39,061 nucleotides of DNA from Rhodospirillaceae bacterium. Its GTDB lineage: Bacteria; Pseudomonadota; Alphaproteobacteria; SMXQ01. Of the stretch, positions 14,331-34,264 are shown one piece after another (within the stretch, counting starts at the first letter, position 1; each line of letters starts with the position of its first letter). The stretch lies in contig CANJIM010000030.1 in the NCBI GenBank assembly GCA_947474495.1, positions 1 to 39,061 of the forward strand, read 5' to 3'. The position numbers were made by a program, and so were the translations under genes. The notes below the pieces were generated by a model. That model had not been told where the DNA came from. It did no database searches and saw only the letters and a list, made by a program, of their open reading frames with translations.

Positions 14331-14753
14331 ATGGCGGACAGCAAGGTCACGTTCGAACTGGTGGCGCCCGAGCGGCTCCTGGTCTCGGCGGACGTCGACA
14401 TGGTCGTCGTCCCCGGCACCGAGGGCGACTTCGGTGTGTTGCCGGGCCATGCGCCGCTGATCGCTACGGTGCGCGCCGGCGTCATCGACATCTACGAGGG
14501 CAGCATCGACGCCAAGTCGATCACCCAGCGCATCTTCGTCGCCGGCGGCGTCGCCGAAGTGACCGAGACGCGTTGCACGGTGCTGGCCGAACAGGCTTCG
14601 CCGGTCGGCGACCTGACCGCCGCCGACGCCCAGGCCCGCCTGGACGCCGCCCGCGCCCGCGTGACCGAATCGGGCGCCGACGAGATCGCCCGCGACCGCG
14701 CCCTCAAGGACGTGGCCATCGCCGAAGCGATGTTGGCCGCCGTCGCGGCGTAA
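14331..14753 (+). CDS. atpC: F-type ATP synthase epsilon subunit
   Basis: Epsilon sits at the base of the central stalk and, in many bacteria, inhibits wasteful ATP hydrolysis. The 140-residue protein has the N-terminal beta-sandwich (KVTFELVAPERLLVSADVDM, GTEGDFGVLPGHAPLIATVR) and a short C-terminal helical hairpin rich in Ala, Asp and Arg. It closes the operon. The last codons read GCG GCG TAA, and that sequence is itself the first part of a 28-bp tandem repeat that fills the next 140 nt, so the stop codon lies inside repeat unit 1. Confidence 0.95.
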   Translation: MADSKVTFELVAPERLLVSADVDMVVVPGTEGDFGVLPGHAPLIATVRAGVIDIYEGSIDAKSITQRIFVAGGVAEVTETRCTVLAEQASPVGDLTAADAQARLDAARARVTESGADEIARDRALKDVAIAEAMLAAVAA

Positions 14754-14900
14754 GCCGCGCATTTCTTAAAACAGGGCGTAAGCCGCGCATTTCTTAAAAC
14801 AGGGCGTAAGCCGCGCATTTCTTAAAACAGGGCGTAAGCCGCGCATTTCTTAAAACAGGGCGTAAGCCGCGCATTTCTGAATGCCGGGCGTCAGCCGCGC
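14749..14900 (+). repeat. 28-bp tandem repeat, five units plus a partial sixth, starting on the atpC stop codon
   Basis: Units start at 14749, 14777, 14805, 14833 and 14861, each beginning CGTAAGCCGCGCATTTC. Units 1-4 are identical over all 28 bases. Unit 5 differs near its 3' end, and a decayed sixth starts at 14889. The unit is not a multiple of three, so it does not encode a peptide repeat. AAGCCGCG in each full unit is the reverse complement of CGCGGCTT at 14913-14920, so any copy could pair with that downstream site in the atp transcript. No T-run follows, so it is not a normal terminator. No spacers separate the units, so it is not CRISPR. Confidence 0.95.
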
Positions 14901-15068
14901 AAGCCACACGTCCGCGGCTTAAAGGCCACACCGCTAAGTCCCCGCACAATATTCTTTTTTGCAGCGAACCTTCGCCGTTATCCATCGTTTCTGTTCGGAT
15001 CGGGGCTGCGACTTTCGTCATAGGGCGTCAAGTCGCAGGGCTTTGATTTCCGGTCTCATTTTTGGTCC

Positions 15069-15157: not shown

Positions 15158-15970
15158 ATGAAACATTGGACAGCCGACGATATCCCCTGGGGCAGCTTCG
15201 ATGCCTCAAAGGTCGATCCGGACATCCTCAAGATCGTCAAAGCGGCGAGCATGGTGGAGAAGAACGGCGACGATTATGCCGTCTATCTCTGCAACGTGTT
15301 CTCCGACGACGCCGAGTTCCAGGGTGTGGCGCGCAATTGGGCTGAGGAAGAGGTCCAGCATGGCGACGTGCTCGGCCGCTGGGCCCAGATGGCCGACGCC
15401 TCGTTCGATTTTCCGGCCTGCTTCAAATCCTTCACCGACGGCTACAAGCTGCCGCTCGACGCGACCAAGTCAGTGCGCGGCTCGCGCGCCGGCGAACTGG
15501 TGGCGCGCTGCATCGTCGAGGTCGGCACCAGCTCCTACTACACGGCGCTCGGCGCGGCGACGGACGAGCCGGTGCTGAAAGCGATCTGCCAGCGCATCGC
15601 GGCCGACGAACTGCGCCACTACAAACTGTTCTACACGCACCTGCGCGAATATCTCGACCGCGAGGACCTCAACCAGTGGCAGCGCCTGAAAGTGGCGCTC
15701 AGCCGCATGGTCGAGACCGAGGACGACGAGCTGGCCTATGCCTATTACGCCGCCAACGGCAACGGCGAGGCCTATGACCGTGAGCGTTGGGCGCGCGAAT
15801 ATATGCGCCGCGCCATGCGCTTCTACAAACCGAACACGGTGGACCGCGCCGTGGCGATGACCTTGAAAGCAGCCGGCTTCAAAGGCAACGGCTGGCTGCA
15901 CCGCTGCGTCAGCACGGTGGCCTGGCGCTTCGTCAGCTATCGCCAGAAGAAGCTCGCCGCGGCGGCTTAA
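15158..15970 (+). CDS. ferritin-like (rubrerythrin-fold) diiron protein
   Basis: The 270-residue protein has two diiron signatures: EEVQH ending at H68 and DELRH at 150-154, with further acidic candidates E34 and E121 on the other helices. This is the four-helix-bundle carboxylate-bridged diiron pattern. It may be an oxidase, hydroxylase or iron-handling protein; the substrate cannot be told. The frame is open up to a GTG at 15062, but MKHWTADDIPW at 15158 is the likely start. TAGGAG lies at 15138-15143 with a long 14-nt spacing, and a -10-like box overlaps the upstream extension. Its TAA and the TAA of convergent rppH share the palindrome TTAA at 15967-15970. Confidence 0.72.
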   Translation: MKHWTADDIPWGSFDASKVDPDILKIVKAASMVEKNGDDYAVYLCNVFSDDAEFQGVARNWAEEEVQHGDVLGRWAQMADASFDFPACFKSFTDGYKLPLDATKSVRGSRAGELVARCIVEVGTSSYYTALGAATDEPVLKAICQRIAADELRHYKLFYTHLREYLDREDLNQWQRLKVALSRMVETEDDELAYAYYAANGNGEAYDRERWAREYMRRAMRFYKPNTVDRAVAMTLKAAGFKGNGWLHRCVSTVAWRFVSYRQKKLAAAA

Positions 15971-32775: not shown

Positions 32776-34026
32776 TCACTCCGGTTTCTCGATGCGCCGG
32801 ATGTCCGGAAACTTCCAAATCCAGATGGCGACGATGGCCAGCACGGCGATGCCGCCGAACAGCGCCGAGCCGACCGCGCCGAGCCACACGGCGACCAGGC
32901 CCGACTCGAACTGGCCAAGCTGGCTGCCGACATTGACGGAGAGGCCATTCACCGCCGCCAGACGCCCGCGCATGTCGTCGGGCGTGCGCAACTGGATGAT
33001 CGTCTGGCGCAGCACTTGGCTCAGCATGTCGCCGGCGCCGAGCGTCAGCATGCAGGCGAACGACAGGGCGACGTTTTCGGACAAGGCGAAGACAACGGTG
33101 GATAGCCCATAGACGGCGACGCCGAGGAAAAACTTGCGGCCGGCGCCCGTCGTCACTGGCCAGCGCGCCAGCACCACGGCCATGAGCAAGGCGCCGACGG
33201 CCGGCGCAGAGCGCAGCAGCCCGAAGCCCCAGGGGCCGATCTCGAGCACGTCTTTGGCGAAAATCGGCAGCAGCGCCGCGACGCCGCCGAAGAACACCCC
33301 CATCAAGTCGAGCGACATCAGGCCTAGCATCACCGGATTGTCGCGGATCAGCTTGAATCCGGCGAAGACCGTGCCCCAATTGGCCTCGCGCTTAGCGCTT
33401 CCGCCGAAGCGCGGCGTCGGCAGCAGATAGCTCGCCGTCGCGGCGAGCGCGAGCAAGACGAAGCATGCGGCGTAGCCCGCCGTTCCGTTCGCCATGATGA
33501 TCAGCCCGCCGAGCGAGGGGCCGAGCAATTGCGACAGCTTCAAAGCCGAGGTGGAGAAGGCCACGGCCCGGCCGAAGACTTCGTGGCCGACCAGACTCGG
33601 CAGGATCGCTTGCAGGGCCGGTCCGGAGAAGGTGCGGCCCACCGCACCGACGAACAGCAAGAGGTAGAACGCGACGAGCGGCGGCGAGTCCGCCAGGCTC
33701 ACGGCGATGAATCCGATCGGCACGGCCGCCTCGACCGTGAAGCAGATGCGCAGCACCCGTCGGCGGTCGAAGCGATCGGCCACCTGCCCGGCGAACAGCA
33801 GCAACAGCAGCGGCGGCAGGAATTGCACCAGGCCGATCAGGCCGAGATGGAAGGCGCTGCCGGTCATCTCGTAGACCTGCCAGCCGACGACCACGCCCAG
33901 CATGTTGTACGACATGTTCCATGCGAAACGCATGGTGAAGAACAGCGCGAATGCGCGTTCGCGAAATAGCGCGTAGGACGAAGCCTTCGCTGCGGGCGGC
34001 GCTTCGGCGCTACCGGGGACGGTCAT
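32776..34026 (-). CDS. MFS transporter of the EntS/MFS_3 type
   Basis: The 416-residue protein has about twelve membrane helices in two six-helix halves. The loop 2-3 signature of the major facilitator family is GQVADRFDRRRVL near residue 80, with a PRFGGSAKREANW linker at mid-protein. The closest group by pattern is the EntS-like drug and siderophore exporters, but the substrate is unknown and no siderophore genes are nearby. Upstream are a strong stem-loop and the remnant of an oxygenase-like gene on the same strand, so it may have been cotranscribed with a catabolic gene. The deleted IS3-type element lies just beyond its stop. Confidence 0.85.
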   Translation of the reverse strand: MTVPGSAEAPPAAKASSYALFRERAFALFFTMRFAWNMSYNMLGVVVGWQVYEMTGSAFHLGLIGLVQFLPPLLLLLFAGQVADRFDRRRVLRICFTVEAAVPIGFIAVSLADSPPLVAFYLLLFVGAVGRTFSGPALQAILPSLVGHEVFGRAVAFSTSALKLSQLLGPSLGGLIIMANGTAGYAACFVLLALAATASYLLPTPRFGGSAKREANWGTVFAGFKLIRDNPVMLGLMSLDLMGVFFGGVAALLPIFAKDVLEIGPWGFGLLRSAPAVGALLMAVVLARWPVTTGAGRKFFLGVAVYGLSTVVFALSENVALSFACMLTLGAGDMLSQVLRQTIIQLRTPDDMRGRLAAVNGLSVNVGSQLGQFESGLVAVWLGAVGSALFGGIAVLAIVAIWIWKFPDIRRIEKPE

Positions 34027-34049
34027 GGGTGCCGCCTAGGATGGGAGAT

Positions 34050-34076
34050 GCGACGGCGACGTCGCGTCGCCGTCGC
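34050..34076 (-). other. 12-bp perfect stem-loop upstream of the MFS gene
   Basis: GCGACGGCGACG (34050-34061) and CGTCGCCGTCGC (34065-34076) are perfect inverted repeats around TCG. It lies between the oxygenase-like remnant stop and the MFS start, ending 24 nt before the ATG. No T-run follows in the minus direction, so it is either a poor terminator of the former upstream gene or a structured leader. Confidence 0.6.
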
Positions 34077-34089
34077 GATACCAAGCCGG

Positions 34090-34264
34090 CTATTCGGCGG
34101 CGTTGCGGAATAGATCCATACGTTCGTTGATATAGACCCATACGTTCGTTGATGACGTCGATGGCGATGATCTTGTTCTTCGCCGGGTCGCGGATCACGC
34201 CCATCGGGTCGCCGCCCTTCTGGACGATCTCGATTTGCTCCTTAACCAGCTTGCGCAGCATCAC
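34090..34264 (-). pseudogene. C-terminal remnant of an oxygenase-like gene with a 22-bp duplication
   Basis: From 34264 the minus strand reads MMLRKLVKEQIEIVQKGGDP, then MGVIRDPAKNKIIAIDVINE. In the original frame the end would be NERMDLFRNAAE with a TAG at 34092-34090. A direct duplication of CCATACGTTCGTTGAT (34116-34131 and 34138-34153, period 22 bp) shifts the frame, so the product now runs on as RMGLYQRTYGS. The first residues resemble the C-terminal end of Rieske-type ring-hydroxylating oxygenase large subunits, but the match is weak. The 5' part is missing and the break lies beside the 96-bp repeat. Confidence 0.55.

Follow-up and report, generated by a model that had tools for sequence, protein, structure and literature searches.

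The 39,061-nt window analysed here (contig CANJIM010000030.1 of a Rhodospirillaceae bacterium) contains the end of an ATP synthase operon, in which the alpha, gamma and beta genes are followed by atpC (epsilon subunit). A tandem array of a 28-bp unit lies across the atpC stop codon. With a probability of about 0.7, this array is a minisatellite of recent, lineage-specific origin, produced when the atpC end was duplicated in tandem at a spot that was already palindromic, the stop codon lying in its loop. Direct support comes from the array itself, its absence from the sister genome, the uniqueness of its unit, the hairpin, and an excess of arrays at stops over starts in the genus.

Anatomy of the array

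The features of the region are the following.
14331–14753, plus strand: atpC, open reading frame for the ATP synthase epsilon subunit, 140 aa (Pfam PF02823 ATP-synt_DE_N, E=1.8e-25; TAA stop at 14751–14753)
14744–14759, plus strand: 6-bp perfect hairpin CGCGGC-GTAA-GCCGCG with the atpC stop in the loop (arms 14744–14749 and 14754–14759; ~-12 kcal/mol)
14747–14858, plus strand: four identical 28-bp units GGCGTAAGCCGCGCATTTCTTAAAACAG, starting at 14747, 14775, 14803 and 14831 (28/28 each in the unit-by-unit comparison)
14859–14886, plus strand: fifth unit (24/28 matches in the same comparison, first 20 bases perfect)
14887–14914, plus strand: sixth unit, decayed (18/28 matches in the same comparison)
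14893–14919, plus strand: hairpin AGCCGCG...CGCGGCT at the 3' edge (-12 kcal/mol)
14754–14960, plus strand: stretch of 207 bp that corresponds to 20 bp in the sister genome (from the comparison of the two); its end is a T-run that no strong hairpin closely precedes

Each base from 14747 to 14850 is identical to the base 28 positions further on, with zero exceptions, and perfect 28-bp periodicity extends over 132 bp (14747–14878, 4.7 copies). The 28 bp following the sixth unit match at 9 of 28 positions, which is background. Tandem Repeats Finder (TRF) calls a repeat at 14747–14901 with a score of 275, far exceeding every other repeat in the window. A chance origin of the periodicity is excluded. 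Minisatellites consist of head-to-tail units of ~10–100 bp with high identity, and the array, with its 28-bp unit and 4.7 perfect copies, is of this type.

An earlier note on this DNA had described a 28-bp tandem repeat at the atpC end, and both the unit-by-unit comparison and TRF bear this out. Its left edge had been placed at 14749; in its maximal extent the array begins at 14747, two bases earlier. The register of any tandem repeat is arbitrary. The array includes the last base of the penultimate atpC codon, the final codon GCG and the stop TAA. Because 28 is not divisible by three, stop codons are present in all three frames along the array, which is probably a by-product.

The gene after atpC (15158–15970) encodes a ferritin-like or desaturase-type protein with a weak Pfam match to FA_desaturase_2. 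In several relatives a gene with a similar initial HWT..IPW motif also lies after atpC.

The array is absent from the sister genome

Only one other genome of the same genus was found, a metagenome assembly (public contig CAMAVH010000004). Its record carries the label 'Rhizobium sp. Q54', which the closest relatives in an atpC comparison do not bear out. The sister atpC is 91% identical and is followed by the same downstream gene; the spacer and the start of this gene are alignable at 86% identity. The end of atpC in the sister reads ATCGCCGCC-TAAAA-GGCGCCGAT. Here the stop codon also lies in the loop of a hairpin with changed arms, and a second hairpin follows directly. Among 107 atpC ends from other alphaproteobacterial genomes, that of the sister being one of them, none has a tandem repeat (best score 11 vs 99 for the window).

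Read most simply, the two sequences place the origin of the array after the two species split, in keeping with the lack of differences among the first units. A formal alternative to youth is that the sister lost the array, or that an older array was homogenised. The recent expansion proposed in the earlier note agrees with both the identical units and the missing array in the sister. The array is real and lineage-specific, and it is probably young.

The unit itself is unique. A genome-wide search for it, as the earlier note had suggested, returned only the array at up to 3 mismatches, and 10 family genomes contain no copy at this threshold. An exact 25-mer of the unit matched none of the contigs of GTDB r220, from which the window's own record may be excluded. 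Plasmids gave no match either.

Hairpins at the atpC end

The hairpin around the stop codon, which the earlier note did not contain, is built from the last codons of atpC and the first unit. The full 6-bp stem is limited to this first copy; the inner units form a 3-bp stem only (GGC-GTAA-GCC). The RNA fold of the whole array is no more stable than that of dinucleotide shuffles (z +0.5), and its energy of -56.7 kcal/mol shows no gain over the mean of -57.1 for arrays of permuted units. A search for terminators yielded one site, a 6-bp stem followed by CATTTCTTAA, vs 0.7 expected by chance. No strong stem directly precedes the T-run near 14953–14958.

Alternative pairing partners in the mRNA had been proposed on the basis of CGCGGCTT, which is indeed located at 14913–14920. 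Its complementarity to AAGCCGCG in each unit is real, but as a structural reason for the array the proposal is not supported, given that the fold is no better than shuffles or permuted units; the complementarity carries little weight. The stop-loop hairpin of atpC may contribute to termination or protection of the atp transcript. Further copies in the array probably add little.

Tandem repeats at gene ends across the genus

The atpC array prompted a survey of sampled stretches from both genomes (839 kb from this one, 400 kb from its sister; 1.24 Mb in total), in which the array itself is counted. Genes were called by a simple method based on GC content by codon position and the counts are therefore approximate. 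Several short arrays with units of 13–29 bp lie across stop codons, among them those behind the pyruvate kinase gene (L054) and at L136, L139, L143, L162, L165, L167 and L174. Under a uniform score, arrays occur at 10 of 910 stop ends (~1%) and at 1 of 910 starts (Fisher p=0.011). When coding overlap is capped at 60%, nine repeats straddle a stop codon, compared with 2.1 expected by random placement in non-coding DNA. A few of the non-coding repeats listed are probably coding sequence at contig edges, which makes this comparison conservative for stops. The two counts share one sample and are not independent.

Most of the stop-straddling units contain a GC-rich hairpin, as read by eye. The variable copy number suggested in the earlier note has a parallel at two other gene ends, where orthologous arrays differ between the two species, with 3 vs 2 copies at the L174/L264 ends and 2 vs 3 copies at L136/L265 (for L262 and L265 the pairwise alignments were poorly placed and were read by eye). 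In one of these array pairs the hairpin has changed in a compensating manner (CCGCC-TAA-GGCGG vs CCGCT-TAA-AGCGG). Small repeats at gene ends are a habit of this genus, of which the atpC array is the strongest case.

Two of these arrays are described individually. At L162:19412–19471 (sister), four perfect 15-bp copies of GCTAATAAGCGCCGG span a predicted stop, and no homologous region turned up in the genome of the window. At L054:15432–15506 (this genome, contig C19), a 27-bp repeat lies across and after the pyruvate kinase stop. It forms GGGC-TCAC-GCCC mini-hairpins, which precede a strong terminator that the sister has kept without the repeat.

A separate repeat is present elsewhere in the window. 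At 34110–34153, a 22-bp tandem duplication (2 copies, 95%) lies near the 3' end of a minus-strand open reading frame (34010–34264). Its unit length is not divisible by three, and the C-terminus of the predicted product looks frame-shifted by the duplication. The sister genome contains no match to this region at the DNA level.

Proposed origin of the array

Slipped-strand mispairing or unequal exchange at the gene-end palindrome would have produced the tandem duplication. A duplication running from inside atpC to beyond its stop would leave the original stop in the first copy. Because this stop is retained, the epsilon subunit would be unchanged and the event tolerated, so that the duplication could persist and grow. 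Since the protein stays intact after a duplication across the stop, the stop side would be permissive for repeats. We infer slippage as the mechanism, the palindrome as the trigger and near-neutrality. The array leaves the protein intact, and a large effect is unlikely.

Several observations weigh against this origin or narrow it. The 3-bp stems of the inner copies, with 6 bp in the first copy alone, argue that a hairpin in every unit does not drive later growth. Tolerance alone predicts as many repeats in the middle of spacers as at stops, but in the 1.24-Mb sample mid-spacer repeats are fewer than expected. Tolerance therefore leaves part of the excess at stops unexplained, which suggests that local palindromes are also implicated. 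The difference between the genus and other alphaproteobacteria in arrays at stops (10/910 vs 5/932) is not significant (p=0.20); in atp-centred loci of other alphaproteobacteria, none of 458 gene ends has such an array. Stems of at least 6 bp centred in the 10 bases that end with the stop number 34 vs 8 in shuffles, which speaks for the proposed origin, but against swapped downstream tails, a stricter null, the excess of stop-loop hairpins shrinks (24 vs ~13 genes at a score of at least 18). Finally, the copy number of the array is taken from one draft assembly.

Alternative explanations

The array could be a selected 3'-end element, with its hairpins in tandem and its redundant stops serving to terminate or protect the atp transcript and to shield the gene downstream. 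The two hairpins right after atpC in the sister, where the stop has stayed in the loop despite the changed arms, are consistent with such a role, as are the stops in all three frames. Furthermore, clusters of hairpins are reported to act jointly in termination (PMC8355165). This explanation is nevertheless unlikely: the fold gains nothing over shuffles or permuted-unit arrays, the inner stems are short, a U-tract beside a strong stem is not evident (the single terminator site being close to the chance expectation), and all relatives examined are devoid of the array.

A broader version, in which stop-in-loop hairpins are a recurrent, selected gene-end element of the genus, tandem amplification tunes transcript 3' ends and atpC is the extreme case, is highly doubtful. 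If it were true, gene ends would be fast-evolving regulatory minisatellites. Over 75 ortholog pairs, an automatic set that left out the atpC pair, conservation of stop-in-loop hairpins is weakly correlated (Spearman 0.29, p=0.012). Only two of these pairs are strong in both species, and one of the two is near-identical in sequence.

An assembly artefact or a wrong copy number is very unlikely. The genome is a metagenome-derived draft of 127 contigs, and tandem units can be miscounted in short-read assemblies; against this, units five and six have diverged and sit in a unique flank, the length of the array is ~155 bp, and the separately assembled sister genome has similar arrays.

Origin as a copy of a dispersed element (repetitive extragenic palindrome, miniature inverted-repeat transposable element, or clustered regularly interspaced short palindromic repeats, CRISPR) can be dismissed: the 28-bp direct repeats are partly palindromic, but the genome contains no further copies of the unit, and the CRISPR direct-repeat match in Rfam (E=0.62) has a score of 19 vs a gathering threshold of 42 and lies nearly entirely outside the array. 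The first two element types were rejected on the same copy search, and a CRISPR array was rejected on the ground that the units abut without spacers. No RNA family reached the threshold in the Rfam search of the region.

Significance and comparison with known systems

The young minisatellite at atpC is a clean before-and-after case (20 vs 207 bp) of a minisatellite born on the stop codon of a core operon. If its copy number is variable, it would also serve as a strain marker. The literature search brought up no report that tandem repeats are in excess over stop codons in bacteria, which is not proof of absence.

The closest system is VNTR3239 (ETR-F), a tandem repeat in the rnc-fpg1 spacer of Mycobacterium tuberculosis, where expression of the gene downstream correlates with the length of the array (PMC2734929). 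Both are lineage-specific arrays in a spacer that comprises only a few bp in relatives, and the length of VNTR3239 is variable (PMC2734929). The unit is 28 bp here and 55–79 bp there, and VNTR3239 starts 40 bp after the rnc stop, whereas the atpC array begins inside the gene and covers the stop (PMC2734929). The expression effect of VNTR3239 is on the downstream gene (PMC2734929). The comparison at atpC covers one genome per species.

The tandem repeats of Borgs likewise start within the ends of open reading frames, and most of their intergenic unit lengths are not multiples of three (PMC9879509). Borg arrays are numerous, A-rich and carried by archaeal extrachromosomal elements (PMC9879509); here, one array with a half GC-rich unit is present on a bacterial contig with core genes. 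Inverted repeats in E. coli are similarly concentrated around stop codons and transcript ends (PMC6060812). They are mostly terminator parts downstream of the stop (PMC6060812), whereas at atpC the stop is in the loop and the segment is duplicated. The atpC array is ordinary in kind. The part worth a wider test is the excess of repeats at stops over starts, a simple and testable genome-wide statement on where duplications arise or survive.
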